Positions 8,942 through 26,880 of a stretch of 26,880 bases of DNA are shown here, one piece after another; position 1 is the stretch's first letter; the number at the start of each line of letters is the position of its first letter. The DNA comes from a virus, in IMG/VR virus record IMGVR_UViG_3300030101_000592, positions 1-26,880 of that record. One strand, given 5' to 3'. A program made the translations under genes and the position numbers. The notes under the pieces were generated by a model. It was not told the DNA's origin. It did not search any database and worked only from the letters and a program-made list of their open reading frames with translations.

Positions 8942-10190
8942 AGGCAGACAACCAGCAGAAACGAATGTAAGCACAGGGCTACCTGACTACGTTGATCCGT
9001 ATTTTAAAAGGCTTTTAAAGGGTGCTGAAGAAGCTACAATGCCGTTTGACCCTGAAACTGGCGAGTCTACTTACACTCCATACGGAGAAGAACGCCTAAC
9101 AAAATCAGCGGATTATACAGATATAACAGGTGCGCGAGATCAACTACGCGGTATCCTAGGCGGTGGGATTCCGGGCATGCAAGAGGCATATGATGCACAA
9201 CGTGCAGGCATCACAGGACTTACCTCACTTGCTGAAAGCCCTACAACATTTACCGCTGGCACAGCAGATCCATACAGCGGATTTACAGAATCTCAGTTTA
9301 CGAGAGGCGCAGGCACTGAGTTTGATTTTGGTGATGCACGACAGTTTACGGGTGATGAGGTTCAGAGGTACATGGACCCATACATGCAGAACGTTGTAGA
9401 CATACAAAAACGTGAGGCAGTTAGAGACTTTGATAGGGGTCAAGCAGGTAGAGATGCCTCTGCAGTGCAAGCAGGAGCATTTGGGGGTTCTCGTCAGGCA
9501 GTTGCACAAGGTATGGCAGAACAAAATCTGCAAGATCGTTTGGGTGATATACAGCAGATTGGTAGTCAAGCAGCGTTTGACAGAGCAATGCAAGCATTTG
9601 AATCGGATCGAGCTGCTGAAATGGGTGTACAGGGAAGCCAAGCTGCTGAAGCTGCTAGGGTACAAGGCATTGACATCGGCGAGTTGGGACGCACTGAAAG
9701 CGCTGCTGCTACCGAAGCCGCACGTAGGCAATCCGCTGAAGCCGCAGAGCTTGCACGTACACAGGGTATAGATCTTAGCGAAGCTGCTAGAGTACAAGCC
9801 GCTCAAGAGGCGCAGCGCATGGGTACGGCTGGCTTATACGGAGATTTAATGGGCGCAGGTAGAGGTCTTGTAGGTCTTGGTGAGCTTGAGCGTGGCACAG
9901 GCATACAGGACGCACAGATGCTTGAAACCATTGGTAGTGACATTCGTGCAGAGGATCAGGCACGTCTCGACCTTAATTATCAAGATTTCTTACGACAACA
10001 GGACTATCCAATCAGTCAGTACGAACGCTTTGCAGGTCTTTTGAGCGGTGTACCTACAGGAAGCTTAGATCGAACATCCATGCAGTATGCAGCGTTTAAC
10101 CCGATACAGGCTGCTATGGGTACAGGTCTATCAGCATTGGGACTGTATAGAGGTCTCGGCTACGGTGGCGGAGGAGGTATGTACGGATGA
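8934..10190 (+). CDS. Internal virion-type protein with Ala/Gln/Glu helical repeats
   Basis: The product is 418 aa. Residues 1-60 are polar. Residues 145-225 contain QRYMDPYMQNVVDIQKREA, followed by GAFGGSRQAVAQ, a block I associate with ejection or internal proteins of marine podoviruses. Residues 235-296 are an Ala/Glu/Gln/Arg helical repeat region with two copies of a similar unit, ARVQGIDIGELGR and ARTQGIDLSEAAR. Residues 360-374 read SQYERFAGLLSGVPTG, and the C terminus is Gly/Tyr-rich. There is no signal peptide. The start has GGAG upstream and lies inside the previous stop region; the end is ATGA-coupled to the next gene, with GGAGGAGG serving that start. The likely role is a capsid-internal protein that forms part of the ejected trans-envelope conduit. 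Inferred from position and architecture. Confidence 0.5.
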   Translation: MGKGRQPAETNVSTGLPDYVDPYFKRLLKGAEEATMPFDPETGESTYTPYGEERLTKSADYTDITGARDQLRGILGGGIPGMQEAYDAQRAGITGLTSLAESPTTFTAGTADPYSGFTESQFTRGAGTEFDFGDARQFTGDEVQRYMDPYMQNVVDIQKREAVRDFDRGQAGRDASAVQAGAFGGSRQAVAQGMAEQNLQDRLGDIQQIGSQAAFDRAMQAFESDRAAEMGVQGSQAAEAARVQGIDIGELGRTESAAATEAARRQSAEAAELARTQGIDLSEAARVQAAQEAQRMGTAGLYGDLMGAGRGLVGLGELERGTGIQDAQMLETIGSDIRAEDQARLDLNYQDFLRQQDYPISQYERFAGLLSGVPTGSLDRTSMQYAAFNPIQAAMGTGLSALGLYRGLGYGGGGGMYG

Positions 10191-12155: not shown

Positions 12156-15100
12156 ATGGGCGTATACAACTATGTCGATCAGCAAACAGGACAAGCCTAT
12201 GAATTTACTATAGCAGGTGATACTCCTAGCGACACTGAATTTGCCAGAATAAGACAAGTATTAGAGACAGATCGCTCAGAAACCAGAGCAAGGCTAGAAG
12301 AACGATTTGGAGAAGGCTCCGTTGCTGAGTTTGATGATGGCACTGCTTTGGGTCGTGGGTTCGCTCGTGGTAAAAAACAATTTAAAGAAGCGATTGGCGA
12401 AACTATAGGTACGATTGGAGAAGAAACTGGTATCGGTTTCTTAGAAGATTATGGGGTTGGTTTAGAAGAACGCGCCCGTCAAGAACTAAACGAACTAATG
12501 TTACAACAACCAGAACGCATGCAATCTACAGACGTAGAGGGATTTGGTTCAGGGCTTACATTTATCGGTGAGACTTTCGGTGAGCAAATACCACAACTTG
12601 GCGCAGGTCTTGGCGCAGCGGCTACAACAGCCGTTCTTGCTCCTACAGCTCCGTTTGTTGCAGGTGCGGCAGCGGCGGGCGTTGCAACTGCACCCATACT
12701 ATTTGGTAACAACATACAGAGACAAGAAGACGAAGTTGCTGCAGGCAGAAAAGAAAGTGTTGATGTAGGGGCAGCTCTGACAGCCACGTTTGGGCAGGCA
12801 GCACTTGAAGGTATAGCTGACAAGATCTTGTTAGGTGGGTCTTTAGGCCCATTATTCACGACGCAAGGTAAGAATCTATTTGTTAGAACCGGATTCCGTG
12901 CAGGCTCAGGCGCAGGATCGGAATCCCTAACTGAAGTCGGGCAACAAATGCTTGAACGCTCTCAGGCGGGGCTACCCATCGACAGTGATGACGCTATCGC
13001 AGAATACCGTGAAGCAGCTATTGCAGGTGGGCTAGTCGGTGGCGGCGTACGAACTACTGTCGGCGCAGTTGGGGACACATTTGCAGGAGCTAGACAGGAA
13101 AGAGAAAGGGCTGAACGAGAGCTAGCAAACATACTTGATGATGACACTACGGCTGACATTACACCTACCTTAATTACAGACGAGATGCTTACAGAACTAG
13201 GAGTGGCTAACAGACCTAAAATGCCGATTCGCACGAAAGTAGTCGGTAAAGATATATCTGATCCAGAAGCACAAAAAGCTTTAAGAGCCTACGCTAAAAA
13301 CGCTGTAGTAAAGAAAAAAGATCCTAAGATAGGAGAGAAAATTGAAGCATTTATCAGATCAGCTCCCGCTAACGTCGAAGGAGCTGGAAGAAGCGTTGAG
13401 AGTGGTGAACCTAGCGTGGCTGGAAGCGGAAGGGTTGGAGGTGGAGTTGAGAGTGCCAAGAAGCCTACATCATCTAAAGACAAAGGAGTGGGAGCTGGTG
13501 TGTCAGCTTCTACTGATACTACAGACACAACAGGAACAAAGTCAGATACATTAACTGATGACCAGAAAAGAATACTTCTTATTTTACAAAGAGCTAGAGC
13601 TAGACAGCTTGAAGAATCTGTACAATTAGTAACTCCACCAGAAGCGAATAGTCTTGTAAAAGCTGGTCTTATGAGCAAAGAGGACGCTTTGCTTAATCCT
13701 ATGGCAACAGCTAGAGTAACAGAGCTACTAGCTGAAGACCCAAAAGCAGTATTATCTCGTGTTGGGCCAAAGAAAAAGTTAACTTTTAAAGATTTACCCG
13801 TTCCAGAAACAGATACAGAGACAGCGGCTAGGATCGCCACCACAGACGCAGATGTAAGTGCTTTAGGTGCAGAACAGGGAGCTGAGCTTTCTGCAACAGA
13901 GAAAAAAGCTGCGGATGATTTTGTTAAGGAGATGCAACTGCAAGAAACTGCGGCAGAAGAAGAGGCAACAGCAAAACGAGGGGCTGCGTTTTCTCCAGCA
14001 GAGAGAAAAGCGATTAGGGATTTTATTGACACTAAACCTGAGTTTGCGCCGTTATTTAAGGCAGAAACCCCTAAAAAGGTAAAACGTGTGCTGCTAGGAC
14101 AACGCGCTGCATTAATACGTGATATGTACGGATTAGGTGAAGTACCCGGAGTAGTACGCACACGACCAAACATACCCATAACAGGTATAGAAGGTGTTGA
14201 GGGAATAGTCGATACTAAGGTTGAAGATACTCCAGAGTCTATAGCAAGAGCTGAAGCCTTTAAGTCTGTTTTAAAAGAAGAAACAGACATTGCCCAACAA
14301 GAAAAGCAAGCCGAGTTGAACACTCAATTTGAACAGCCGCCAAAAAATAGAGTTGGACAGATATCAAAAGCAGAGACACAAGCCGCTAAAGAATACGATG
14401 CAATAGGAGACGGGGAACCCGATACGACAACCGTTGCAGACAAACAAGCTGTCATAGATTTAAAAGCGTCCAAAGCTAAAGATCGTGATAGCAAAGCAGA
14501 TGCTGCTTATATATTCTTTAATAAAAAACGTAGACCTGCAGATGCTTTGACAATTATAGGCGCTTTGAAATCACAAGGTACTAAGTTTAGCGAAACGAAA
14601 ACAGAAGATACGCCTACAAAAGAATTTTTATATTACAAAGACATGACCAGAGACAAGGCTAGACTAGCTTCTGAATGGGTAAAAGAAAACATGTCTAAAC
14701 AAGCACAAGACATAGTATTAGATTACGAAGTCGCTTACGGAAAAAGTACAATATCTGCAGCCCTTTCGGATAAGATAGACGCAGATATAATAGCAACAAG
14801 AGAAAAAGAGGCGGCGGCGACGGGTCCAAAACAAAAGCCCAAAAAACAGACAAAACAAGAGTTTGATCTAAAAGAAGTTAAACGTGACGATACGGCATTA
14901 GAAACAGCAAAACGTTTTGACGAAGGGATGTTTTTAGAAAAACCAGTAGCCTCATTAGACTTACGCCTCCTACCAGATGCCATACAAGCATTGGAAAACA
15001 ACAATTTAGGTGTAGCATTACGCACCTTGTCAGCTACTAGTCCTGTAAAACGTGTGCAACAGATAGCAGCTAGATTTGATAAGGTGGTAGGCACTACAAA

Positions 15101-18100
15101 GGTGCAGGTGCTTGATAGCCTTGAACCTACGTTAGGGCGTGAGGCTTCAGGTTTCTTTGAGCCTGAAACAAATACTATATTTATAAATAGAAATACTGGT
15201 ATGAACGCTCATACGTTACTACACGAGATGGGTCACGCGGTCACCTCTGCTTCTATAGCGGAAAACAAGTCTTCACCAACTACAAAACAGCTACAAACTA
15301 TCTTCAACACTGTGCGTGAGCAAATCGGCGAAGTATATGGCACTAGAAATTTAGATGAATTTGTATCCGAAGCATTAAGCAATCCACAATTTCAGTCGGC
15401 CTTAGCTTCAATAAGGGTAGACAGTGACAGAACTTCTTTATGGAGCAAACTTCGTGACAGCTTTAAAAAGATCCTACGCAGGGCATTAAGATTGCCACCA
15501 ACCTCTGCGCTTACAGAAACAGACAGTATAATAGATGCTATCATAGCACCTGCTCCAGAATATCGTGATGCTCCAAGAATACCGCTCATAACAGAAACAA
15601 AGTCGGGCGCTAATAAATTACTTACCAATATGGTAAACGTAGTGCCAGAAACAACACAAAATACGTTAGCTGACTTTGCAGATATAGCGTACAATGAAAA
15701 CGCCAAACCTGTTGTTAGGAACTTTTTTCTAAGTCTGCTTCCGTCAAATATTTTATCTGACATGGCTAAGTCTAAGATACCTTTTGCACCAGAACTAAAC
15801 ATATTAATAAACGAAATGAGTGGTTTGCTTAGAAACAAAACAGACATACTAAACTCACTATCTAATGAGTTGTTTAAATGGAAAAAAGCAAACCCTGAAC
15901 AATCTAAAATACTAAATAACCTCATACCACGCAGCACGTTTTTACGTGTTGATCCGTCTGTAGATGTCAGCACCTATAAGAATGATCGTCAGAGGACAGC
16001 AGAGCATGCAGACCTACTCGCTCTTTACAATCAGTTAGATCCTCAAGGTCAGAAGTTATACCAACAGATGAGAAATTACTTTCAGGATACATACAATGAC
16101 GTGATAGCAGCGTTGGAAACAAGACTAGAAGCTACCATGCCTGAAGGTGAGGCAAGAGTAAGCTCTATGAAGAGACTGGCGGAAGTATTACAAAAAGAAT
16201 CGGGTGTCATACGTCCGTACTTCCCACTCACACGCAAAGGCGACTATCGCCTATCCTATACTGGCCCTGATTTGTTGAATCCTCAGAATAAAGCAGGAGA
16301 ACGTTATGTAGAGTATTACCCTACGCTTAAAAAGGCGGAGCAGGCTAGGGATAGAGCAAGTAGGGTAACAGTTGATGGGGTTGGCACTGCAGACTTTGAA
16401 ATTTCTTTAGCCTCCAAACCTATGGATATAGAAAGAAGTCCTCCACCTAGATTTGTTATGCAAATTATAGACGCAGTAGATTTACGTAAAGATAAGTTTG
16501 CTAATGAACAAGACTATAAAGAAGCCATGCAAGCAATTATAGATTTATCTCTAGACGCTATGCCTGAACGATCTTTTATGCAAAGTTTTAGACGACGTGG
16601 AAATAGACGAGGGTTCTTAGGCGACACTACACCTACGGGTATGGGTGATATGGAATTTGACGCTTTTACAATGTTAAAAGAAAAAGGGCGTAATCTAAAC
16701 AGACAGCTAGTGCAGATGCAGTATGCAGCTAAACTAGAAAACTTTAGAAAAAAGCTAGCTATGCCTAGCAAAGAAGGGTCAAAACAAAGCTACCTTACTG
16801 ATCCTGTGACTGCACCTATAGCAGGGAAAATGAACCAAATAGCTAAGTTTGCTCAGGCTCCAAACATACCAAGAGCCTCACAAATAGTTAATAGTATAGG
16901 TTTTGGCTATACTATGGGTTTGAACTTTTCTTCTGCTTTCATTACTTTCTTTGACGTTGGCATGTCCTCCATGCCTGTACTCGCGGGTAAGTACGGTATT
17001 AGTAATACAACAAGAGCGTATGGCGATGCTGTAAGACTATTTACTAAAGCTCCTACAAAACGAACAGTTATGCTTCCGGGAGCAGACGGTACACCAACAC
17101 CTCAAGAGATAAATATGGGTGCTGCAGGTAAATCTTCCGGTAATTATGGAGATGCACTACCAGACGATATGAAGAAATTGTTTGTAGACAGAGCTATAGA
17201 CAAGGCCACGTCACAAGGACAGTTCAACCAGTCGTTTACACAAGAAGCTTTAGAAGTAGGTAAGGACGCGCCGCTTGAAACATTTAACCGTTATATGAGC
17301 TTTATGTTTCATCACTCAGAACGGTTCAACAGAGAGACCACATTCATTGCAGCGTATTTGGCATCCGCTAGAAAAGCATTGCAAGAGGGCAAGACACTCG
17401 ATGCTGATTTAGCAGATAAACTAGCGCAAGATGCCATAAACGATACTGAATTTACCCTTGGCGGGACAGCCGCTGCAGGACGTCCGACCATAGCACAGAC
17501 TGGTGTGGGTAACGTTGCCTTCTTATTTAAACGCTTTGCGATAAGTAAGTACTACATGATGCTACGTCTAGGTAGAGACGCTATGAAAAATATGGACCCT
17601 AAAGAGAGAAGGGCAGCACAAAAAGGACTGGCAGGATTTATAGGGATGTCAGGTCTTTTGGCAGGGTTGGGTGGGATGCCACTGATGGGAGCTTTAGGCG
17701 TACTGTACAACATGTTTACAGATGACGATGAAGATGATTTTGAAGCAGCTACACGTAAGCTAGTAGGCGAAGGTGTCTATGGTGGGCTAGCAAATCAAAT
17801 TCTTGGGGTAGATCTAGCTAATCGTATATCCATGAACAGTCTTATATATCGTAAACCCATTATAGAAAAAGATCAAAGTAACCTATGGACGTTGATAGAA
17901 CAGCTCGGCGGTCCCGTTGTAGGCGTTTATCTAAGTGCAGAACGTGGCGTAAAAGATATATCAAACGGTGAGATTTATAGAGGTATAGAATCTATGGTTC
18001 CAGCCGCTTTTAGGAACGTAATGAAAACTGGACGGTTTGCGGTTGAAGGCGCTACCACACGCAGAGGTGATCCGATTACAGAAGATATTAATCCATACAA

Positions 18101-18461
18101 TATAGGGATGCAGTTTTTGGGGTTTGCTCCAAACACTTACATACAATCCTTAGAGTTCAATAAAAACAATCGTCGCAGACAAGAAGCCATAAATAGTAGG
18201 CGTACTAAACTATTACGTCAGCGTAACATGGCTAGGAAAGAAGGCGACTTTGAAGAAGTATACGAAATAGATAGGTTAATAGAAGAGTTTAACGCTTCTC
18301 TGCCAAGCGGTGCATCCAAGTCTAGAATAACCAATGAAACTAAAAAAAGGTCATTTGCATCTTTTGGTAGGACAACGCTAAAAATGCGTGGAGGTATGAC
18401 GTATACCCCGTTCATGGAAGAAAGTTTGAACGAGTTCGATCAAGGTTTTAACTTATTTTGA
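12156..18461 (+). CDS. Giant internal virion (ejection) protein with zinc-protease motif
   Basis: The product is 2101 aa and the largest gene here. Residues about 140-185 are an Ala/Gly/Thr-rich hydrophobic stretch. Residues 380-850 are Lys/Glu/Ala-rich and probably extended or helical. A zincin motif HEMGH at 1023-1027, within HTLLHEMGHAVTS, is followed 45 residues later by DEFVSEAL, where Glu1072 (or Glu1068) is a likely third zinc ligand. Next come PYFPLTRKGDYRLSY (about 1355-1370) and further conserved-looking helical blocks. A hydrophobic segment at about 1824-1854 (GLAGFIGMSGLLAGLGG) precedes a basic C terminus. Size and position match the large gp16-like component of podovirus ejectosomes or polyvalent phage proteins. 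T7 gp16 carries a transglycosylase, whereas here the recognisable enzyme is a metalloprotease. The function on entry, such as processing envelope or host proteins, is inferred. Confidence 0.7.
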   Translation: MGVYNYVDQQTGQAYEFTIAGDTPSDTEFARIRQVLETDRSETRARLEERFGEGSVAEFDDGTALGRGFARGKKQFKEAIGETIGTIGEETGIGFLEDYGVGLEERARQELNELMLQQPERMQSTDVEGFGSGLTFIGETFGEQIPQLGAGLGAAATTAVLAPTAPFVAGAAAAGVATAPILFGNNIQRQEDEVAAGRKESVDVGAALTATFGQAALEGIADKILLGGSLGPLFTTQGKNLFVRTGFRAGSGAGSESLTEVGQQMLERSQAGLPIDSDDAIAEYREAAIAGGLVGGGVRTTVGAVGDTFAGARQERERAERELANILDDDTTADITPTLITDEMLTELGVANRPKMPIRTKVVGKDISDPEAQKALRAYAKNAVVKKKDPKIGEKIEAFIRSAPANVEGAGRSVESGEPSVAGSGRVGGGVESAKKPTSSKDKGVGAGVSASTDTTDTTGTKSDTLTDDQKRILLILQRARARQLEESVQLVTPPEANSLVKAGLMSKEDALLNPMATARVTELLAEDPKAVLSRVGPKKKLTFKDLPVPETDTETAARIATTDADVSALGAEQGAELSATEKKAADDFVKEMQLQETAAEEEATAKRGAAFSPAERKAIRDFIDTKPEFAPLFKAETPKKVKRVLLGQRAALIRDMYGLGEVPGVVRTRPNIPITGIEGVEGIVDTKVEDTPESIARAEAFKSVLKEETDIAQQEKQAELNTQFEQPPKNRVGQISKAETQAAKEYDAIGDGEPDTTTVADKQAVIDLKASKAKDRDSKADAAYIFFNKKRRPADALTIIGALKSQGTKFSETKTEDTPTKEFLYYKDMTRDKARLASEWVKENMSKQAQDIVLDYEVAYGKSTISAALSDKIDADIIATREKEAAATGPKQKPKKQTKQEFDLKEVKRDDTALETAKRFDEGMFLEKPVASLDLRLLPDAIQALENNNLGVALRTLSATSPVKRVQQIAARFDKVVGTTKVQVLDSLEPTLGREASGFFEPETNTIFINRNTGMNAHTLLHEMGHAVTSASIAENKSSPTTKQLQTIFNTVREQIGEVYGTRNLDEFVSEALSNPQFQSALASIRVDSDRTSLWSKLRDSFKKILRRALRLPPTSALTETDSIIDAIIAPAPEYRDAPRIPLITETKSGANKLLTNMVNVVPETTQNTLADFADIAYNENAKPVVRNFFLSLLPSNILSDMAKSKIPFAPELNILINEMSGLLRNKTDILNSLSNELFKWKKANPEQSKILNNLIPRSTFLRVDPSVDVSTYKNDRQRTAEHADLLALYNQLDPQGQKLYQQMRNYFQDTYNDVIAALETRLEATMPEGEARVSSMKRLAEVLQKESGVIRPYFPLTRKGDYRLSYTGPDLLNPQNKAGERYVEYYPTLKKAEQARDRASRVTVDGVGTADFEISLASKPMDIERSPPPRFVMQIIDAVDLRKDKFANEQDYKEAMQAIIDLSLDAMPERSFMQSFRRRGNRRGFLGDTTPTGMGDMEFDAFTMLKEKGRNLNRQLVQMQYAAKLENFRKKLAMPSKEGSKQSYLTDPVTAPIAGKMNQIAKFAQAPNIPRASQIVNSIGFGYTMGLNFSSAFITFFDVGMSSMPVLAGKYGISNTTRAYGDAVRLFTKAPTKRTVMLPGADGTPTPQEINMGAAGKSSGNYGDALPDDMKKLFVDRAIDKATSQGQFNQSFTQEALEVGKDAPLETFNRYMSFMFHHSERFNRETTFIAAYLASARKALQEGKTLDADLADKLAQDAINDTEFTLGGTAAAGRPTIAQTGVGNVAFLFKRFAISKYYMMLRLGRDAMKNMDPKERRAAQKGLAGFIGMSGLLAGLGGMPLMGALGVLYNMFTDDDEDDFEAATRKLVGEGVYGGLANQILGVDLANRISMNSLIYRKPIIEKDQSNLWTLIEQLGGPVVGVYLSAERGVKDISNGEIYRGIESMVPAAFRNVMKTGRFAVEGATTRRGDPITEDINPYNIGMQFLGFAPNTYIQSLEFNKNNRRRQEAINSRRTKLLRQRNMARKEGDFEEVYEIDRLIEEFNASLPSGASKSRITNETKKRSFASFGRTTLKMRGGMTYTPFMEESLNEFDQGFNLF

Positions 18462-18580: not shown

Positions 18581-18778
18581 CACACGTAAACCTAATTTTT
18601 CGTTTTCTATACAAATTTGCACTTCAAACTCCCATGCTTTCATTTTTGCAACACTTTTTAACTGTTTTGTGCCTTTTTCTGTGTTTATACACGGTAGGAA
18701 GAACGAAGAACCCACATCCATAGTCTCCCAGTTTATGGTAATTCTAAGCCCATCAGGGTTTAGATCGTCAAGTTTCAT
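18566..18778 (-). CDS. Conserved-looking 70-aa protein at the end of the replication operon
   Basis: The 70-aa product starts MKLDDLNPDGLRI, then has METMDVGSS-like and FFLPCINTEKGTKQL segments, and ends LGLRVWRTM. I recall small proteins of this pattern (VGSSFFIPC, INTEKA, RVWRT) beside replication genes in phages, with no assigned function. The layout of strand, conserved Cys, helix, strand suggests a compact folded domain. The start at 18778 overlaps the primase-helicase gene by 11 bases. An in-frame ATG at 18793, with GAAGGG upstream, would add five residues and is a fair alternative. It is the last gene before the leftward terminator. It could be a small replication accessory, but nothing shows what it does. 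Confidence 0.6.
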   Translation of the reverse strand: MKLDDLNPDGLRITINWETMDVGSSFFLPCINTEKGTKQLKSVAKMKAWEFEVQICIENEKLGLRVWRTM

Positions 18779-21467
18779 TACTTTCTGGTTCATCAAACCC
18801 TTCAAACCTCATTTGTAGCACGTCCTGCGGAGGCATGTTAAAATCTGTGCCTTTTGTCAGTCGTTTCTTTACACGCTTTGCGTTCTTCTTCTGTTTGAGA
18901 TCATCAACTAGAGACGCATAGTTTATCTGTTGATCTGTACACCAATCCTTAAAAGGTTTGATACGCAAGAAAAGTTCCTTGGTATCGGGTTCGTACCTAG
19001 CCACTAACTGCCCACGCGGTACGGCAGTAACAGGTACTAGCTGATCTAAGCCGTTGTCGTGCCTACCTCGTAAGTCCTCGGTGCTTTCAATTTTGAGTAT
19101 GTTATTGTAGTTTTCTGATATGTAATTACCCAGTGTATCGTCCACAGAAGCTCCGATATCATTCACAAACGTATTCCTACGTATTAGTTCTTTGACCACC
19201 CACTTGTATACTTTACCTACGTCATAGTTAACAAACCCCAATTTTTTAGCGATCATTAGCCCTGCTATTATTACAGCGTTGCCATTAGACCAGAAACGGT
19301 TTTCAGGTCCAAGCCCTGCCGCTCCGTCTAATTTTGTCTTTATAGACTGCACGATCTTACGCGCCTCTTCTTTATTGTTTATCACCCATTGTATATATTT
19401 CGGTCCTATCCAACCGTAATTTACTTGAATGTCTTCATGAAGATCTGCTGTAATTCGTGTGTCTTCTGCACCAGATATTAGCTTTAAAACCTTTATTTCA
19501 AACAACCGCTGCATCTCTGCTTTCGGCGTAGCTTTGTCACGGCTCAATATTTCCCATGCACTAGTGTTGCCAGAGCTAAGAGCTAACAGTTTCCAAGGCT
19601 TGCCGCGCACACGCTCTTCATTGCCATTTGCTGACAGCCTGTTCTTCTGACGACCACCCGAAACTTGGTACACATACTCAGACATCTCTGAGCTTGTCAC
19701 ATTAGTCATCTCATCAGATATTAGAGGTAAGCTATGCATGACTTCACCACGGTTCATACGTGAGTTGTGCGTATCTGATTTCTGTAAGGATAGTAGCTCT
19801 GGGTTACCCCACAAAGACATAGCTGCATACTGCGCTGTTGTCTTACCTACACCCGTACCCCCGAATAGATGAACTGCCATACTGTTTAGCCCTGTTAACG
19901 CCATCAGAGGAGACCCAAAACCTACACCAACCACGTATTGATGCATCTCGAAGCCCTCCCTATCGTAGAAGTTTAGAAGTTCTATGTTCTTTTCCTCTGA
20001 TCCTTTTGGCTCAAAAGAGTCCATAAACCCTGCTGTTTTAGAAGAAGGTGGATTATAAGTTATTTTATCTCCCTCAACTAATCTCTCTCCCAGTACAAAA
20101 GATTCCATGTCATCATCAACCCAACCAAACTGTCTATGTGCTTCAGATGCTGTTGATGTATGTTGTAGTTCATCTACCCATTTTGTTGTATATGCCATAA
20201 GTTTATCCAAATTTTTGCCCCATGCAGTGACGCCTTCTCTTGCCATGCTCTTACGAAACTCCTCTCTAGAAGTTATATGTGTAAGAGGCACAGTAAATTG
20301 ACGCACACCGTCACGAGGTAAGTGTAAGCGAAAGGCTAATGTTTCGCCAAGTTCTTCGTCGTGTAAGCGACGAGTAATGTAAATGTCGTGGTGATATATC
20401 TGTTCTTCTTCTATCTCTCCGTCAGCATTGCTGCTACGCAGAAAAACCCCGCCCATCGCCCCCCTAAAATAAGGCTTAGGAAACGCAGGTATATCGCATT
20501 CTTTATTATCAGCTTCTTTAAACCGAAACGCTAGTTTATTTTCAAAGCCCTTTGCTCTTGCTCTGTTCACCAAAGATCCAAAGCTAGTACGGTTAGGATT
20601 AAAAGATTCCCAAGCTTTTATAACGTCTTCATGGCCTTTATAATTAGCGGGACTCTTCTCGCAAAAAACTCCCTCTGAGAACTTTAAAAATAACGATAAA
20701 AAGTTTTCGTCAGTGGCTTTTAAACTATGCCCAACTGACACCCACTCTTCTCGATCTTCTGGATCTAGAAAAGCTAGCATTTCTATTATTTGTTTTTCAT
20801 CAGGTATTGTGTTTTGGAAAAGGGCATCAACCTCGTTTGCGACTGGCTTTGTAACTATATCCAGTTTCTGCACGAATGTAGATAGACATACAGGTTCTAG
20901 CGAGCCTACCCCCAGTAAAGATACAGGAAGAGGTGAGTCACTCTTATAGTTGTTCGTTTTGGGTATACGTAATATGCGAGCCACATCAGCGGTTACTGCA
21001 GGATCAGCCAATAATCCTTTTGTATCGCAAGTTTTCTTCAACCGCTCTGCCGCGTCTGTCCACTCCTCTGCCGAAACTGCTTCGGTAAGGGGCCAGTAAA
21101 CATGTACACCGCGCCCGCTGTTGACCATTGTAGGTTTAGGCAGGGAGAGATCTTTACAGAAGTTACGTAATGCGGCCACGGCGAGCTGCTGCGTGGCGTA
21201 TTCCTTCGAAGGCCCACAATCCAGATCGAGGAACAAAGCTTTTAATTCTTGAGCGTTGTTACCTTTACGACTAGTAGGTTCTTTAAATGTACTGAGTGCG
21301 AAGTATACGTCTAATCCATCGTTGTTATATTTATTTGCCGCTCTCTCTACCTCTTCAATGGTATCGTAGAACTTTTGTATCCGTATATTATCTTTCGCTC
21401 TCGCAGCGAATACACAGTAGTTTCCGTTACTACTCAGTACCCCCTGTAAAAATTCTGCTGTTTCCAT
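18768..21467 (-). CDS. PrimPol-DUF927 primase-helicase
   Basis: The product is 899 aa from the ATG at 21467, which has GGAG seven bases upstream; a longer frame back to 21527 would cross a strong hairpin and lacks a ribosome-binding site. The N-terminal part is an archaeo-eukaryotic-type primase (PrimPol): DxD metal motif in LFLDLDCG (Asp81, Asp83), SGRGVHVYW (Ser117, His122), then DVARILRIPKTNN (161-173). Residues 220-310 look like a PriCT-type linker. The C-terminal part is a DUF927-type P-loop ATPase: Walker A GGTGVGKTT (536-544), Walker B LISDEMTN (Asp585, Glu586), and a sensor-like LALSSGN at about 628. It should synthesise primers and probably unwind or load on DNA at phage replication origins. 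No DnaB or T7 gp4 type helicase is visible, so this may be the main replicative helicase. Confidence 0.85.
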   Translation of the reverse strand: METAEFLQGVLSSNGNYCVFAARAKDNIRIQKFYDTIEEVERAANKYNNDGLDVYFALSTFKEPTSRKGNNAQELKALFLDLDCGPSKEYATQQLAVAALRNFCKDLSLPKPTMVNSGRGVHVYWPLTEAVSAEEWTDAAERLKKTCDTKGLLADPAVTADVARILRIPKTNNYKSDSPLPVSLLGVGSLEPVCLSTFVQKLDIVTKPVANEVDALFQNTIPDEKQIIEMLAFLDPEDREEWVSVGHSLKATDENFLSLFLKFSEGVFCEKSPANYKGHEDVIKAWESFNPNRTSFGSLVNRARAKGFENKLAFRFKEADNKECDIPAFPKPYFRGAMGGVFLRSSNADGEIEEEQIYHHDIYITRRLHDEELGETLAFRLHLPRDGVRQFTVPLTHITSREEFRKSMAREGVTAWGKNLDKLMAYTTKWVDELQHTSTASEAHRQFGWVDDDMESFVLGERLVEGDKITYNPPSSKTAGFMDSFEPKGSEEKNIELLNFYDREGFEMHQYVVGVGFGSPLMALTGLNSMAVHLFGGTGVGKTTAQYAAMSLWGNPELLSLQKSDTHNSRMNRGEVMHSLPLISDEMTNVTSSEMSEYVYQVSGGRQKNRLSANGNEERVRGKPWKLLALSSGNTSAWEILSRDKATPKAEMQRLFEIKVLKLISGAEDTRITADLHEDIQVNYGWIGPKYIQWVINNKEEARKIVQSIKTKLDGAAGLGPENRFWSNGNAVIIAGLMIAKKLGFVNYDVGKVYKWVVKELIRRNTFVNDIGASVDDTLGNYISENYNNILKIESTEDLRGRHDNGLDQLVPVTAVPRGQLVARYEPDTKELFLRIKPFKDWCTDQQINYASLVDDLKQKKNAKRVKKRLTKGTDFNMPPQDVLQMRFEGFDEPESNET

Positions 21468-21484
21468 AATGCTGCTCCAAAATG

Positions 21485-21526
21485 TGTCGTGGTGAGGCGG
21501 AGAAGTATGGAAGCCCCACCACGACA
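21485..21526 (-). promoter_or_regulatory. 14-bp hairpin just upstream of the primase-helicase ribosome-binding site
   Basis: Arms 21485-21498 and 21513-21526 pair over 14 positions with one imperfect pair, which is G-U in the leftward RNA, around a 14-base loop. The arms include GTCGTGGTG and its exact complement. The RNA stem ends six bases before the GGAG (21475-21478) serving the ATG at 21467. No T-run follows, only four T, so it is not a standard terminator. Translational control, RNase processing or a protein-binding site are possible. Confidence 0.7.
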
Positions 21527-21554
21527 ATGACTATTGTTAATGCTTCCCAATGGG

Positions 21555-22262
21555 TTAATCGTCCCAATCATCAACAATAGACGCAAGGTCTTCATCAGGT
21601 GGCGGAGCAGCGCCCTCTGCTTTCTTGGAGACCTTTTTCGGTGCAGGTACTTCATCCTCTTCAACAGGAGCAGTATCTGCTGCACTTAAAAATACTGTGG
21701 ACGGATCATCCTCGTCATCTATAACCCAACCGTCGTCAACCGCAGCAAAAGGAGAATGTTGTTTCTTCTCCACAAGCTTTATAACTTGCACAGCTTTTAT
21801 GCGTAACGACACACCACAAGTACTCATGTTGTAGGGGACTAAGTTTACCCCCAAGTTTACAAGGCTACCGGTCGTAAGTCTAAACTCAGGTGGCAGCTTC
21901 TTGTTATTTGAGTCCACAATTAACGGCGGATCAGTAACCTTACCTTTGAACTGCCCTCTTAGTTGCACTGAACCTATAAAATTGCCTTCATTATCTTTGT
22001 TAAAGACCTCTACAGGTTTCGGCATAGCAGGCCAATTCTTAGCCGCTTCAGCTTTGTAAGCAACCGCCATGTGTTTGTATAGCTCTTTAGCCTGACTTTC
22101 TGTCATTTTAAAGTCCATCTCGTACTTGGCGTTCTCTTCAGTAGGTCCACAAGGCACTGTCTTACCATTAGGTGGAATGGAATTATCATACCTGTAAGTT
22201 TGGTCTAACTTTGGATACAGGGCTTCAACTCTCTCAATTAAATGTATATTGGCTTCCGCCAT
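21555..22262 (-). CDS. Single-stranded DNA-binding-like protein with acidic C-terminal tail
   Basis: The product is 235 aa from the ATG at 22262, preceded by GAGGAG eight bases upstream; a longer start at 22277 lacks this. The first 165 residues are a compact alpha-beta domain. It contains YPKLDQTYRYD (16-26), a GSVQLRGQFKG strand pair (97-107), and a C-terminal strand SLRIKAVQVIKLV (152-164), a pattern typical of phage SSB-like proteins (T7 gp2.5 or DUF2815 type). Residues 175-235 are low-complexity and acidic, ending SIVDDWDD. An acidic tail with an aromatic residue near the end is the hallmark of SSB proteins that recruit polymerase and primase. Its 5' end overlaps the four-cysteine gene by 29 bases. 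An 87-base gap with a hairpin precedes the primase-helicase. OB-fold assignment is inferred. Confidence 0.65.
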   Translation of the reverse strand: MAEANIHLIERVEALYPKLDQTYRYDNSIPPNGKTVPCGPTEENAKYEMDFKMTESQAKELYKHMAVAYKAEAAKNWPAMPKPVEVFNKDNEGNFIGSVQLRGQFKGKVTDPPLIVDSNNKKLPPEFRLTTGSLVNLGVNLVPYNMSTCGVSLRIKAVQVIKLVEKKQHSPFAAVDDGWVIDDEDDPSTVFLSAADTAPVEEDEVPAPKKVSKKAEGAAPPPDEDLASIVDDWDD

Positions 22263-22950
22263 TGTCGTTCTCCTCATATTTGAACCCGTCCACTACTTTG
22301 AACGGTGATTTATCTATAGAAGTCTTTTCTAAGACAACCATAGTCTGTAATGCAGCCATGCTTGCAGCAGGGCTACCCTTTTGTTTTAAAGCCTCTACTC
22401 GCTCTTCATCGTCAAGCGCACGTAAAGCTTTAAAAAACAACTTTGGCATGGTGCTACTAGTATCAAAACTAATTTGTGTCACCACGGAAATAGAATTTGT
22501 CTTATGCCCATGAAGGTATTTTGCATAAGCTTGCATAGGCATGTTACCATCTTTCGCTTTCCCAAATATAGATGTTGCAGGTATGCGAAGTTGATAAATA
22601 GTGTCCATCTGCTCCTCAAGTACGATAGCCAGACGTTGTGAGTACCTACAAGCTCGACCACCCCCCTTGCTCGAACCTTTTATGTTTTGCTCACAGCTCA
22701 TACACCTGTGAGCTTGACGTTGTTCTGACGGTACATCAGAAGAAGGTACTATAGTGTCTAGCGACCAACATGTAGGAGCAGATGGATTTGTTGGATCATA
22801 CTCTGCTTCATAGTAGGTACGAGCCAACTTAGCAGCGTTTACAATAACCACGTTCAACGGATCTGCGGTAATACCCACCCGCTCACCGTCAACGGTCTTT
22901 TTGAAATGACCATCTCCAAGAGTGATATTGTTAAACGCTGTAACTGACAT
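22234..22950 (-). CDS. Four-cysteine protein of unknown function coupled to the SSB-like gene
   Basis: The product is 238 aa. Residues 61-101 contain Cys61, then HRCMSCEQN (Cys83, Cys86), then GGGRACRYSQRLAIV (Cys101). This Cys-x21-Cys-x2-Cys-x14-Cys arrangement is a probable zinc or other metal site. A Gly/Ser/Lys-rich loop just before Cys101 and basic residues after it could contact nucleic acid. The rest is mixed alpha-beta, with LPATSIFGKAKDGNMPMQAY at about 122-142. I do not recognise the family. It starts in the stop of the helix-turn-helix gene (TAATG) and overlaps the SSB-like start by 29 bases, so both are probably made together. A replication or recombination accessory role, such as an SSB partner or loader, is an inference from position only. 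Confidence 0.6.
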   Translation of the reverse strand: MSVTAFNNITLGDGHFKKTVDGERVGITADPLNVVIVNAAKLARTYYEAEYDPTNPSAPTCWSLDTIVPSSDVPSEQRQAHRCMSCEQNIKGSSKGGGRACRYSQRLAIVLEEQMDTIYQLRIPATSIFGKAKDGNMPMQAYAKYLHGHKTNSISVVTQISFDTSSTMPKLFFKALRALDDEERVEALKQKGSPAASMAALQTMVVLEKTSIDKSPFKVVDGFKYEENDNGGSQYTFN

Positions 22951-23156
22951 TACTCGGCTTGCCCTGATTTAGTCACTTCTGACAATGCCGATTCCACATC
23001 ATTCAAACGAAAGCGATACACCTCACCCACCTTTATATAAGTGTCATCAGGTATGTAATCGTTGTTTACCCACTTTCGAACAGTAGATACGGACACTTGG
23101 AAGTAATCCGCTACTTTATTAATATTTACATATGGAGTATCTTCTACTTGCATCAT
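22950..23156 (-). CDS. Small helix-turn-helix DNA-binding protein (excisionase/MerR-like)
   Basis: The product is 68 aa, a single winged-helix-type domain. VNINKVADYFQVSVSTVRKW (residues 9-28) is a clear helix-turn-helix with the typical Ser-Val-Ser-Thr-Val-Arg-Lys-Trp recognition helix. It is followed by a wing, YIKVGEVYRFRLNDVESAL, as in the excisionase/MerR-type HTH_17 family. Such proteins act as excisionases, transcription regulators or terminase small-subunit-like DNA binders. No integrase is visible, so a regulatory or replication-initiator role is more likely here. The ATG at 23156 overlaps the upstream stop (ATGA), and a second ATG follows directly. GAGG lies upstream. The stop is coupled to the next gene by TAATG. 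Confidence 0.7.
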   Translation of the reverse strand: MMQVEDTPYVNINKVADYFQVSVSTVRKWVNNDYIPDDTYIKVGEVYRFRLNDVESALSEVTKSGQAE

Positions 23157-23545
23157 TTGTTTTTCCTCACAGAAACAACGTATTCACTGTCCACATTCAG
23201 ACCTGCAGGTTGAAGATCAGGGTTTTCTTCTAAGAACTGCCTTACGTTGGTTTGGTTAAGGCGCTTTTCAAAAAACTCTAGAAGGTTGTGCTTCTTTACA
23301 AAAGCATACATGGCTTCCCAGTCATTAGTCCAAACGCGCTGTCTGACAGTGCGATAAAATACACCGCTTGCGGTTTTCACACTATCCACCCCTTGCTCTT
23401 TGCAATAGTCCAACATAGCAGCTTTTATCTTGTCTTGCTGTTTAGATAATTTTTCATCTGCTTCTTTGAACTCCGCAGACAACTCAGATCTTTTACTTCT
23501 TATTTTTATAAAAGTCTTTAATAATTTATCGACACTAACGGTCAT
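23153..23545 (-). CDS. Coiled-coil protein of unknown function (Gp157-like layout)
   Basis: The product is 130 aa. Residues 5-50 form a Lys/Glu-rich coiled coil (LLKTFIKIRSKRSELSAEFK and onward). A beta-like segment, VDSVKTASGVFYRTVRQRV, follows at 53-71, then a helical part with EAMYAFVKKHNLLEFFEKRL, and a C-terminal strand EYVVSVRKNK. The order coiled coil, strand pair, terminal VRK strand is reminiscent of phage Gp157-type proteins, but I could not confirm the family. GGAG lies eight bases before the ATG. It is the first gene after a 51-base gap that holds a weak dyad and a promoter candidate. It may act in early phage regulation or DNA metabolism. Function unknown. Confidence 0.55.
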   Translation of the reverse strand: MTVSVDKLLKTFIKIRSKRSELSAEFKEADEKLSKQQDKIKAAMLDYCKEQGVDSVKTASGVFYRTVRQRVWTNDWEAMYAFVKKHNLLEFFEKRLNQTNVRQFLEENPDLQPAGLNVDSEYVVSVRKNK

Positions 23546-23576: not shown

Positions 23577-23604
23577 CATATAGTAACTTATACTACTTAG
23601 TCAA
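23577..23604 (-). promoter_or_regulatory. Weak leftward promoter candidate with imperfect dyad
   Basis: On the - strand TTGACT (23599-23604) is followed after 16 bases by TATATG (23577-23582). The first hexamer matches the -35 consensus at five positions and the second the -10 at four. The same region is a partial inverted repeat, TAGTA (23581-23585) and TACTA (23591-23595) with outer GAC/GTC and ACT/AGT pairs. It would drive the 130-aa gene and those beyond. Low confidence: AT-rich gaps often give such matches. Confidence 0.25.
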
Positions 23605-25132
23605 GTATTTCTTTGTACAAATTTATCATTTCTGTGTGTACGTTGATACGATCATCTAAAAGGCGGTAAATACGCTTTTCAGCATTTGACCCCGCTATTT
23701 GTATAACTGTACACTTATGGTTTTGTCCTGACCTATGCACACGTGCGTTTGCCTGTGCATATGTTTCTAGTGATGAAGTCGGTCCCCACCATACAACAGT
23801 GTTAGCGGCAGTAAGCGTGACACCATGAGCAGCAGCCTGCGGTTGTATTATTAGAACACGAGGGTCAGGGTCTGACTGAAAGCGCTGGAATATGTCTGTA
23901 CGCTTAGGCGCAGAAACGTCTCCTCGTATGATCTCGGACGTAACCCCGTCCCGGAGGAGTCTTTCCGATAGCATATCAATCGTGTGTCTAAACGGTACAA
24001 ATACCAGAACTTTTTGACTGCTTTCATCTATAACTTCTTTCAAGACTTGATACCTATTCTTAATATCAAACTGTATCGTATCGCCTTCATCAGTATATAT
24101 AGCCCCTGCACTTATTTGTAGCAGCTTGTTCAAGCTTATAGCAGCGTTGGCGGCTGTAACGTCTTCCCCAACTATTTGCATAACCATTTTCTTACGAAGC
24201 GTTTCGTAATACTTTTTTTGTTGCGTTGTCATATCTACAAAGCGTTTGGTGTAAACCATATCAGGCAAATCTAAACACTCTTCTTTTGTAAAACGTATAG
24301 CGGGTTGCAAAGCTTTAAATACAGTATCCTTAGCTGTATCTTTTGGTTTGTATTTGAACTGTGTTACTTTCCACATGACTATATCTCGCCAAGACCCAAA
24401 AAATCTTGGTACAGACAACGGATTAATCATCTTAGCTAGACCATAAGCATCCAAAGGACTTTGGGCCGCAGGTGTACCAGTCATCATCCACAGCCAAGCA
24501 TCTTCTCCTATGATATTATTGAGCGTCTTCCATCTTTTAGTCTGTACGTTTTTATAGTGCGTGGCTTCATCAACTATAAATAAATCAAACCCACCGTTGG
24601 CTATATCGTCCTTTACAATCTCTACGCCATCGTAATTTATAATTATAAACTCTGCACCGCTGTTGATAATTTTCTTACGCTTCTCTTTCGAACCATAAGC
24701 AACATCAACTGTTCTGTGCATCGCAAAAGAAAACAAATCGTTCCTCCATGCGCTGTCCATAATTGACAGAGGACATACAACAAGAACTCTGTTTACTTTC
24801 CCCTGTTGCATTAAATAGTCAGCCGCCCATATAGAAGACGCCGTTTTTCCTGTGCCTTGTTCGTTAAAGCAAAAGGCTTTCTTGTTCATAGTGAGAAATG
24901 ATGCCGTATCTTTCTGATGTTCGAACGGTTTGTACTGACCCGGCCAGCTATAACGTTTGGTAATAGGTGACGGTATGTTTATATTTAAATTTTTTAGAGT
25001 ATGAACTTCGTCAATACCCCAGTTTACAACAACTTCATTCATAGACACTTCCTTACTCTTTGGGATTACAGTTGTTATCTGTTTAGGGTTACGAACTTTA
25101 AGCAGTAACGCCTTGTCCCTTATTATTTTCAT
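23597..25132 (-). CDS. SNF2-family superfamily 2 helicase/translocase
   Basis: The product is 511 aa. Motifs in order: Q-like region PFEHQKDTASF (69-79), Walker A NEQGTGKT (90-97), motif Ia VCPLSIMDSAW, DEAT box (188-191), TGTP motif III (218-221), domain 2 with LVFVPFRHTIDML (376-388), and motifs V-VI QPQAAAHGVTLTAANTVVWW (430-449) and QANARVHRSGQ (459-470) with the arginine finger. This is a compact SNF2/DEAD-like ATPase of the size common in phages. It would translocate on duplex DNA using ATP, helping replication, recombination or displacement of host proteins. The ATG at 25132 has GGAGAACAAC directly upstream. A short hairpin lies between it and the preceding gene. No nuclease or HARP domain is fused. 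Confidence 0.88.
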   Translation of the reverse strand: MKIIRDKALLLKVRNPKQITTVIPKSKEVSMNEVVVNWGIDEVHTLKNLNINIPSPITKRYSWPGQYKPFEHQKDTASFLTMNKKAFCFNEQGTGKTASSIWAADYLMQQGKVNRVLVVCPLSIMDSAWRNDLFSFAMHRTVDVAYGSKEKRKKIINSGAEFIIINYDGVEIVKDDIANGGFDLFIVDEATHYKNVQTKRWKTLNNIIGEDAWLWMMTGTPAAQSPLDAYGLAKMINPLSVPRFFGSWRDIVMWKVTQFKYKPKDTAKDTVFKALQPAIRFTKEECLDLPDMVYTKRFVDMTTQQKKYYETLRKKMVMQIVGEDVTAANAAISLNKLLQISAGAIYTDEGDTIQFDIKNRYQVLKEVIDESSQKVLVFVPFRHTIDMLSERLLRDGVTSEIIRGDVSAPKRTDIFQRFQSDPDPRVLIIQPQAAAHGVTLTAANTVVWWGPTSSLETYAQANARVHRSGQNHKCTVIQIAGSNAEKRIYRLLDDRINVHTEMINLYKEILD

Positions 25133-25145
25133 GTTGTTCTCCGTG

Positions 25146-25160
25146 GTAGCTTGTAGCTAC
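25146..25160 (-). repeat. Short hairpin before the SNF2 helicase gene
   Basis: GTAGCT (25146-25151) and AGCTAC (25155-25160) form a six-base stem with a three-base loop. It overlaps the stop codon of the upstream basic-protein gene and ends four bases before the GGAG of the helicase gene. On the + strand the stem is followed by TTCTTTTT, but those bases are Lys codons of the upstream gene. A role in translation coupling is possible; chance is not excluded. Confidence 0.4.
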
Positions 25161-25417
25161 TTCTTTTTGGGTGGTTTACTCATCCTTCCACCTGCTGCTC
25201 TATTTTTTGATGGACTTTGTAGCTTTACGCCATCCTTATTAGATCCACCTTTACTCAATGCTTTTTTGTGTGCGATATCTTTACCTTTTCTTTTTACACC
25301 CTTTTTGTCCATTTTCCTACGGGCGCGTTGTCTTTCCATACGATCAGAGTGTTCACCTCTAGCTTTCTGCTGCTTATACTCTTTCTTATAAGGTCTAGGT
25401 TTGTTTTTATATGGCAT
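25157..25417 (-). CDS. Small, highly basic HNH-like protein
   Basis: The product is 86 aa with about a third Lys or Arg. The centre reads GKDIAHKKALSKGGSN (residues 45-60) followed by GVKLQSPSKNR (63-73). Asp47, His50, the Gly-Gly-Ser-Asn turn and Asn72 are arranged as in the core of HNH nucleases (D/H-x-x, GG, N, N-R). The usual flanking zinc-binding Cys pairs and a second catalytic His are absent. I recall near-identical layouts annotated as HNH endonuclease in marine phages, so it may be a minimal nuclease, or a nucleic-acid-binding protein derived from one. The start overlaps the nuclease stop by one base (TAATG). The 3' end is Lys-rich and runs into a short hairpin. Confidence 0.55.
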   Translation of the reverse strand: MPYKNKPRPYKKEYKQQKARGEHSDRMERQRARRKMDKKGVKRKGKDIAHKKALSKGGSNKDGVKLQSPSKNRAAGGRMSKPPKKK

Positions 25418-26088
25418 TAGTTACTCCCATTATGAGGACACTCCATCACTGGACAATGACGCTTGCATAAACCAGAGGGACGGGGGTTCCATACCTCTTT
25501 GTCAAACGCTATTTGCATACTAGCATACTTTGTTAACCATTTCTCCCAAAGAATTGACTCGGAGTCAATTTCATAAGTTTCTTTTATTAAACTACCCGCA
25601 ACTACAAAAAGCAGACCCGCTTTTATTTTTGTTACCTGTGGGTAATGTTTAAATACCGATAGAGCCATAAGCTCAAGCTGCCCTTTATCTGCATATCGTG
25701 CAGATTTGCCTGTTTTATAATCTATAACCCAAGCCATCTCTGCCAGTACATCTACTATTATAAGATCAGCTATACCCCTAAACCACACTCTCTTATCAAA
25801 GAAGTCACAGGGTTCTAAGTCTTCAGTTAGCCCCAACTTCTTTTCACATACTTTTATACCTCTTTTATTGTTTAGAGCGTCTAGCGTAGGCTCTATAAAC
25901 CCAAACTTTTTTGGTAGAGGTGCATCCTTTCCAATATAATCTTCACATGCTTTATGAAACTCAGTGCCATATCGCGTAGCTTCTGTCTCTTCAAAAGGAT
26001 ATTCTTTTAATATACTAACGTGATAGAACTGCTTCGGGCATGTATCAAATGCCTTTGCTTTGCTAAATGACCAAGGTGCTATGCTCAC
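25417..26088 (-). CDS. PD-(D/E)XK exonuclease of RecB/Cas4 type
   Basis: The product is 223 aa. FSKAKAFDTCPKQFY (8-22) is the typical entry motif of RecB/AddB-type nucleases. RYGTEFHKACEDY follows (39-51, His45 and Glu49), and the catalytic core is GIADLIIVD (Asp108), WVIDYKTGK (Asp123, Lys125) and GQLELMAL (Gln137). Cys17 plus a C-terminal Cys208-x3-Cys212-x4-Cys217 cluster resemble the four-cysteine iron-sulphur site of Cas4 and AddB nucleases, though the spacing differs slightly. It probably resects DNA ends during phage recombination, replication or host DNA breakdown. The ATG overlaps the polymerase stop (ATGA). No CRISPR array or other cas gene is nearby, so a Cas4 adaptation role is not indicated. 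Confidence 0.82.
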   Translation of the reverse strand: MSIAPWSFSKAKAFDTCPKQFYHVSILKEYPFEETEATRYGTEFHKACEDYIGKDAPLPKKFGFIEPTLDALNNKRGIKVCEKKLGLTEDLEPCDFFDKRVWFRGIADLIIVDVLAEMAWVIDYKTGKSARYADKGQLELMALSVFKHYPQVTKIKAGLLFVVAGSLIKETYEIDSESILWEKWLTKYASMQIAFDKEVWNPRPSGLCKRHCPVMECPHNGSN

Positions 26089-26880
26089 TCGCAGTCTCCA
26101 TAGGATTTTCCTGTGCCGCTTTCACAATCCACAGGTAAGCCTGTTGCCCAATCGGGTGTCCATCTCATGCACTCCTCAACATACGTTTGAGCCGCTGCTA
26201 CTTCGGTGTCTTCCACACAGCAAACTATTGAGTCGTGTACCGTCAACACCACTTTATATTTCTTACTAATTCTTAGCATTTGTTCACCTATAATACAACG
26301 TGCTAGTGCTTGGCACACATTCTCTATTACCTTGCCACCGTATATTCTAGTGCGCCCCCTACGTGTTTTATAGCTATACTCAATACCCTTTTCGCCTTGT
26401 TCTCCTGACAAATCATCGTAACGCACTAATAACCCTGACGGCAGTACAATACCGCGTTCCGATCCCGAAACTTCCAATATACCTTCTCTACCAAAATGCG
26501 CGGCTCTTTTACTTGCAAGCTGCTGTATCATATGATGAGCGTCGCGCCATACCTTACTAATTTTAAAGTTAGAGTCACGATATATCTGTATTATCCTCCG
26601 GGCCTCGTGGGGTTCGACTTCATACCCAAACGTCTTTAGCTGTGTGCCAAACTTCTCAGCACCCATACCATATCCTGCGCCTAAGATTGTAGTTTTGCCA
26701 ACGAACCGCTGATCCTTTGTGACATCCGCCTCGTCACATTGATATATACGTGACGCCATCTTTACATATACATCCTCACCTTTTGCAAATGCAGCGGTGA
26801 GATCGTCTTGCCCTGCAAACCATGCCAATACTCGCGCTTCAATCTGCGAACTGTCAGCTTCTACTATGGTGTAGCCTTCG
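26085..26880 (-). CDS. DNA polymerase, family A (C-terminal part; gene continues past window)
   Basis: The frame is open from 26879 without a stop, so only the C-terminal 264 residues are visible; an apparent TTG start at 26828 is internal. Motif A is VEADSSQIEAR (catalytic Asp9 of the visible part, Glu14 as the usual dNTP gate residue). Motif B/O-helix is RFVGKTTILGAGYGMG, with Arg58, Lys62, Leu66 and Tyr70 spaced by four as in E. coli Pol I R754, K758, F762 and Y766. Motif C is TVHDSIV (His215, Asp216), with Ser where many family members have Glu. YGGKVIENVCQALAR also matches the family. This is the phage replicative polymerase. Leu at the 762 position is a known marine viral variant. The exonuclease domain, if present, lies beyond the right edge. 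Confidence 0.93.
   Translation of the reverse strand, partial: EGYTIVEADSSQIEARVLAWFAGQDDLTAAFAKGEDVYVKMASRIYQCDEADVTKDQRFVGKTTILGAGYGMGAEKFGTQLKTFGYEVEPHEARRIIQIYRDSNFKISKVWRDAHHMIQQLASKRAAHFGREGILEVSGSERGIVLPSGLLVRYDDLSGEQGEKGIEYSYKTRRGRTRIYGGKVIENVCQALARCIIGEQMLRISKKYKVVLTVHDSIVCCVEDTEVAAAQTYVEECMRWTPDWATGLPVDCESGTGKSYGDCE

Follow-up and report, generated by a model that had tools for sequence, protein, structure and literature searches.

A Leu762 family A DNA polymerase (PolA) with exonuclease and polymerase parts is probably the replicative polymerase of a tailed phage of ~62 kb, in which it heads a replication-recombination operon; a primase-DUF927 protein encoded in the same operon is proposed to open and prime the fork. 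The operon lies in the window, by which we mean the whole stretch of 26,880 nucleotides of viral DNA that was analyzed. Since Nasko et al. (2018) and Keown et al. (2022) describe Leu762 PolA with SNF2 and "RecB-like" neighbors and with RNR genes few or absent, the type itself has already been published. What is added here is a likely candidate for the fork helicase, the loss of Glu883, and, for the clade of the window, a correction of the label "RecB-like helicase."

The polymerase at the end of the window is of the Leu762 type

The following polA features were located in the window.

26085..26879, minus strand: family A DNA polymerase (PolA), C-terminal 264 residues (Pfam DNA_pol_A PF00476, 2.3e-29; PHROG_17, 5.7e-51)
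26832..26855, minus strand: motif A, DSSQIEAR, with the equivalents of Asp705 and Glu710 (both kept in 80/80)
26670..26708, minus strand: O-helix from Arg754 to Tyr766, R-F-V-G-K-T-T-I-L-G-A-G-Y (conserved in 81/81)
26682..26684, minus strand: Leu codon TTA, at the alignment column of E. coli Phe762 and T7 Tyr526
26229..26237, minus strand: motif C, His-Asp-Ser, in which Asp882 is kept and Glu883 is replaced by Ser (codon TCA, 26229-26231)

The gene is interrupted by a 10-N scaffold gap (~26881-26890), and the window holds its polymerase half only. The exonuclease half lies past the gap (L002:1865-2920), and a DNA_pol_A_exo1 (PF01612) match was found in L002. Contig L004 shows 100% identity over the 264 PolA residues visible in the window and contains an intact 607-residue exonuclease-polymerase gene. 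The model of this full-length PolA (mean pLDDT, 85.5) matched the Klenow fragment (1kfd) with a Z score of 30.4 over 495 residues (rmsd, 3.5).

The initial annotation had recognized an O-helix of the form R-x3-K-x3-L-x3-Y in the window, with the Leu codon TTA at the place of Phe762 in E. coli polymerase I, and both the position and the residue proved to be as it claimed. The alignment was indexed by E. coli MG1655 PolA (Arg = 754 and Phe = 762) and by T7 gp5 (Tyr). In this alignment, column 762 was Leu in the clade of the window, opposite Phe762 of E. coli and Tyr of T7, and no other residue was found there; the phmmer alignment of the window PolA with Klenow was ungapped at this column. Leu762, Arg754, Lys758, and Tyr766 were each present in 81/81 sequences of a first sample, made up of the window and 80 relatives (72 distinct sequences among the 80 PolA rows, eight being duplicates). 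A second sample, centered on the divergent contig L079, had Leu762 in 80/80 sequences. As the two samples have one contig in common (L179 = L079), the second was counted as 79, and Leu762 was thus found in the window and in 159/159 close relatives. Conservation of this extent in both samples excludes a Leu at position 762 by chance, and the polymerase at the end of the window is confirmed to be of the Leu762 type. The catalytic Asp residues of motifs A and C were kept in 80/80 relatives together with Arg754, Lys758, and Tyr766. The equivalents of the DEDD residues of the 3′-5′ exonuclease (Asp355, Glu357, Asp424, Tyr497, and Asp501), located outside the window, were kept wherever they were readable (70 to 75 of the 80 relatives). 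A small PolA tree, having one Phe and one Tyr sequence only, says nothing on how often Leu762 arose.

PolA heads a conserved replication-recombination operon

Downstream of polA, the operon continues in the following order.

25417..26088, minus strand: PD-(D/E)XK nuclease (RecB/Cas4-like), 223 aa (PF12705, 2.3e-13; PHROG_69 exonuclease), sharing 4 bases with the end of polA
25157..25417, minus strand: basic protein, 86 aa, function unassigned, conserved in the operon (PHROG_4590)
23597..25132, minus strand: SNF2-type translocase, 511 aa, with GTGKT and DEAT motifs (PF00176, 2.4e-23)
23153..23545, minus strand: Mu Gam/Gp157-like protein (weak similarity), 130 aa, conserved (PF22709, 1.1e-05, under its cutoff)
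22950..23156, minus strand: helix-turn-helix protein, 68 aa (PF12728, 5e-07)
22234..22950, minus strand: 238-aa protein, function unassigned (PHROG_27714)
21555..22277, minus strand: gp2.5-like single-strand DNA binding/annealing protein (SSB), 240 aa (PHROG_112, 2.1e-16)
18768..21527, minus strand: archaeo-eukaryotic primase fused to a DUF927 AAA+ ATPase, proposed primase-helicase (PF06048, 4.5e-23; likely start ATG at 21467; DUF927 at 19617-20438)

Beyond the primase-DUF927 gene, a convergent gene (12156-18461) encodes a 2,101-aa protein with an HEMGH metallopeptidase-like motif, which is conserved next to the operon. The gene order recurs in relatives, with some variation at the genes for the 238-aa protein and the SSB. 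Many relatives have just one of these two genes, and the C-terminal tails of the two proteins are alike (hhalign, last ~50 columns; 21555-22950). Using flank thresholds of our own choice (3200, 3600, 4500, 7500, and 8500 bases), we found SNF2 in 47/47 first-sample loci whose sequence extends 3200 bases or more past polA and in 46/46 second-sample loci in which it extends 4500 bases or more past polA. The primase-DUF927 gene was present in 28/28 first-sample loci that continue for 3600 bases or more past SNF2 and in 26/26 second-sample loci at a threshold of 8500 bases. Because SNF2 is conserved as fully as the DUF927 protein, conservation alone does not tell which of the two unwinds.

The nuclease gene appears to be what the published label "RecB-like" corresponds to here. 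This neighbor was rejected as a helicase: it is 223 aa long and is without a UvrD or other motor domain.

The primase-DUF927 protein is a candidate for the replicative helicase

The Pfam model detected DUF927 in 25/30 clade records (G000 and 29 of the longest among the 80; only about four are near full length), and the five misses (L017, L053, L058, L061, and L080) were contigs that end before this gene. In phmmer searches, the protein matched the SaPI replication protein (8tch; 1.2e-10) and, weakly, the SCCmec Cch helicase (5dgk; 3.2e-04). The same two structures formed the top two rows of VIA-align, 5dgk with a Z score of 29.5 (480 residues; rmsd, 11.7) and 8tch with a Z score of 25.3 (457 residues; rmsd, 13.4); the high rmsd of the helicase match indicates that the placement of the domains differs from that in 5dgk and 8tch. 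The N-terminal primase part matched the S-2L PrimPol (6zp9) with a Z score of 19.5 over 176 residues (rmsd, 2.6). The model used was of moderate quality (mean pLDDT, 72.5; pTM, 0.45), with residues 204 to 325 mostly at a pLDDT of <50. Walker A Lys542, Walker B Asp585-Glu586, and the primase residues Asp81 and Asp83 (Asp-x-Asp) were invariant in 23/23 aligned sequences. Judged by sequence and modeled fold, the protein appears to be related to Cch, an active helicase, and is the best candidate for the replicative helicase. In the available text of PMC5862659, DUF927 domains fused to primases are predicted to be helicases, and a staphylococcal DUF927 protein is cited as a proven one; the available text of PMC7581432 states that Cch includes DUF927 and resembles MCM. 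Among the literature entries listed, as judged by the entries themselves, nothing was found that joins DUF927 to phage, SNF2, or virioplankton.

In the arrangement that we consider probable, the primase-DUF927 protein would be a ring-forming AAA+ motor of the Cch/SaPI Rep kind that opens and primes the fork, and PolA would extend the primers made by it. Recombination-dependent steps would fall to the nuclease, the gp2.5-like protein, and SNF2, which in this arrangement would not be the replicative helicase but a translocase that we presume to act like Rad54 or T4 UvsW. The enzyme activities, the ring formation, and the division of labor among the operon proteins are what we infer here; Leu762, the absence of Glu883, the domains, the conserved gene order, and the matches in family and fold were observed directly.

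A second motor accompanies SNF2 in other Leu762 phages

Neighboring helicases were compared across Leu762 genomes, as the initial annotation had proposed, in ten additional phage records (RHph_TM3_14A, KPP25, Rollin, HTVC023P, MW202496, phiM5, DLP4, MJing1, Javan389, and Montesquieu). These were picked by hand and are not a random set: eight came from the matches listed for the present PolA (60 of 1970), Rollin from matches to the present primase, and HTVC023P from matches to the present terminase, SNF2 being no criterion. Polymerase scans returned one locus for the RHph_TM3_14A query and two for the KPP25 query. All ten records had Leu762 and SNF2 (10/10 each), and the comparison showed SNF2 as the constant partner, with a second motor that varied: DUF5906 in seven records, DUF927 in two, and UvrD, near polA, in HTVC023P. 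SNF2, DUF5906, and DUF927 were all absent from T7, which served as a control. Among relatives of the HTVC023P polymerase, Leu762 was found in 80/80, and the loci with room had UvrD (47/47), a separate primase (31/31), and SNF2 (16/16); DUF927 was found in none of these 80 relatives.

DnaB and UvrD were rejected as the motor of the window's clade, as DnaB_C and UvrD domains were each found in 0/30 clade records, most of which are fragments.

These data bear on the suggestion of Keown et al. (2022; PMC9069017) that Leu762 genomes may have no other strand-separating enzyme. PolA would then displace the strand alone, aided by SNF2, and the DUF927 protein would be an origin-binding primase only. 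According to the available text of that paper, in vitro strand displacement occurred only among Leu762 and Phe762 enzymes (some of each), and SNF2 lay beside 9/14 Leu762 enzymes. Since some enzymes of these types displace strands, part of the fork opening may be the work of PolA. However, a second motor beside SNF2 in 10/10 other Leu762 records contradicts the suggestion. The Leu762 group near HTVC023P likewise has UvrD in 47/47 loci with room and SNF2 in 16/16, and the window's clade has a Cch-like ATPase with intact Walker A and B residues in 28/28 and 26/26 loci with room. We therefore regard unwinding by PolA alone as improbable. It is more improbable still that SNF2 acts as the replicative helicase, with the DUF927 protein as a loader or initiator: SNF2 is equally conserved (47/47 and 46/46), present in 10/10 other Leu762 records, and absent from T7, but the genes at its side, for a PD-(D/E)XK nuclease and an annealing-type SSB, recall a recombination module, and SNF2 enzymes are described in the available text of PMC9069017 as translocases that do not separate strands. 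The constancy of SNF2 beside a varying second motor also fits a recombination translocase better than a fork helicase, and we take SNF2 to be the former. The primase-DUF927 protein is our preferred candidate for the fork helicase.

Motif C lacks Glu883 in the clade of the window

Glu883 is the usual neighbor of Asp882, although we did not treat it as defining for membership in family A. Among the 80 relatives of the first sample, residue 883 was Ser in 79 and Ala in 1. In the second sample, it was Ser in 18/80 and Ala in 61/80, one sequence (L246) being unreadable. Across the window and the relatives L004-L083 and L179-L258, with the common contig counted once, residue 883 was Ser or Ala in 159/159 readable sequences. 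Glu883 was retained in E. coli, in T7, in 10/10 other Leu762 phages, and in 79/80 HTVC023P relatives, the remaining one being unreadable. Its loss as a companion of every Leu762 enzyme was rejected, given its presence in the HTVC023P-like group (79/80) and in the other phage records (10/10). Neither Glu883 nor E883A with Klenow was found as a term in the available text of the papers matched.

A 2026 preprint by Keown (PMC13228545) asks, in its available text, what compensatory changes make Leu762 enzymes functional. With T7 Y526L nonviable, how a Leu762 enzyme works remained a question, and the constant loss of Glu883 offers a concrete residue for asking it. It is conceivable, if rather unlikely, that this large clade has a remodeled family A active site in which the loss of Glu883 is a second change that contributes to efficient function with Leu762, and that this second change coevolved with a fused primase/MCM-like DUF927 helicase. 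In that case, the loss would be one compensatory route among Leu762 enzymes; it would not apply generally, given that Glu883 is retained in other Leu762 lineages.

Links of Leu762 to fidelity and lifestyle are not supported here

The initial annotation had expected that the Leu type could be placed here together with its replication partners and had linked it to slower, higher-fidelity synthesis and to lifestyle. The first part stands, as the partners are readable alongside the Leu762 PolA; the second is not supported. In the one in vivo test, described in the available text of the 2026 preprint (PMC13228545), T7 Y526L lost 97% of its activity and gave no plaques, its fidelity was not measurable, and the fidelity of T7 Y526F was unchanged. 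Direct support for higher fidelity of Leu762 enzymes was not found in the available text of the papers. With regard to lifestyle, a phage integrase was rejected for this clade because the domain was found in 0/30 clade records, mostly fragments with only about four near full length. Both states occur among the other Leu762 phages: phiM5 and MW202496 have an annotated integrase, and Leu762 is also carried by HTVC023P, an isolated Pelagibacter phage that we take to be lytic. In this set, lifestyle is therefore not predictable from Leu762.

According to the available text of PMC6302109, the idea that Leu762 marks the slow, high-fidelity polymerase of temperate phages goes back to Schmidt (2014) and Nasko (2018). 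A low RNR content would fit it, and the RNR large-subunit domain PF02867 was found in 0/30 clade records, mostly partial. Against it stand the T7 results (PMC13228545), the 0/30 mostly partial clade records with an integrase domain, and Leu762 in the isolated pelagiphage HTVC023P, and we consider it very unlikely.

The record probably represents a nearly complete genome

The source virus record comprises 61,942 bases. No exact terminal repeat was detected in it, but its ends (window positions 1 to 140 and the end of L003) overlap by ~140 bases with four mismatches, as counted by eye. This overlap makes completeness likely, not proven, and suggests an almost complete genome of ~61.8 kb with a circular map. 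Beyond the window, a gene for a DUF2201 metallopeptidase/VWA protein (L002:7911-9140) adjoins one for a conserved 368-aa presumed ATPase (9340-10446), and the pair is kept in many relatives. These two genes resemble a pair of the MoxR-VWA type.

Comparison with known systems

In seawater, Leu762 PolA has served to mark the lifestyle and replication speed of viruses, and SNF2 has been invoked to explain why these polymerases may displace strands on their own. If primase-DUF927, DUF5906, or UvrD proteins are the real fork helicases, the inference of solo displacement needs revision, and the marker should be read together with these partners.

Nasko et al. (2018; PMC6302109) distinguish, in the available text, five PolA groups divided by residue 762 (Tyr, Phe, or Leu) and linked to helicase type. 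Leu762 Group I has RecB-like (70%) and SNF2-like (55%) neighbors and Leu762 Group II has UvrD-like (68%) and SNF2-like (45%) neighbors, RNR being rare near Leu762 PolA. The phage described here resembles Leu762 Group I of Nasko and Keown in having Leu762, an SNF2 neighbor, a neighbor that presumably corresponds to the "RecB-like" one, and an RNR that is rare or not found nearby. It differs in that the latter neighbor is a nuclease and has no helicase domain and in the additional primase-DUF927 motor; this comparison is with the published descriptions of the group. The terms DUF and AAA+ are absent from the main text of PMC6302109.

HTVC023P resembles Leu762 Group II of Nasko. It has Leu762 and SNF2 in common with our phage, along with a TerL of 47% identity and homologous portal and tail-region (733-aa) proteins. 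In contrast, its O-helix differs (AKTIGLGLMYGM), Glu883 is kept, and UvrD and a separate primase replace DUF927. Between HTVC023P (L088) and the window and L002, the structural module is thus common to both, and the Leu762 replication module is swapped.

Among their replication genes, RHph_TM3_14A and Pseudomonas phage Rollin have homologues of the Leu762 PolA, the PD-(D/E)XK nuclease, SNF2, the Gam-like protein, and the primase-DUF927 protein. The PolA of RHph_TM3_14A is 39% identical to that of L004, and Glu883 is kept in both phages. A protein of Rhizobium phage RHph_TM3_14A (L085:29518-32601; QIG67541.1) is annotated as "putative integrase," yet its matches are to DUF927 and to the family of the window's primase-helicase. 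For the DUF927 part of the phage protein, SCCmec Cch and SaPIbov1 Rep (5dgk and 8tch) were the best matches in both sequence and fold. These are proteins of staphylococcal islands, and the fused primase domain is a feature of the phage protein.
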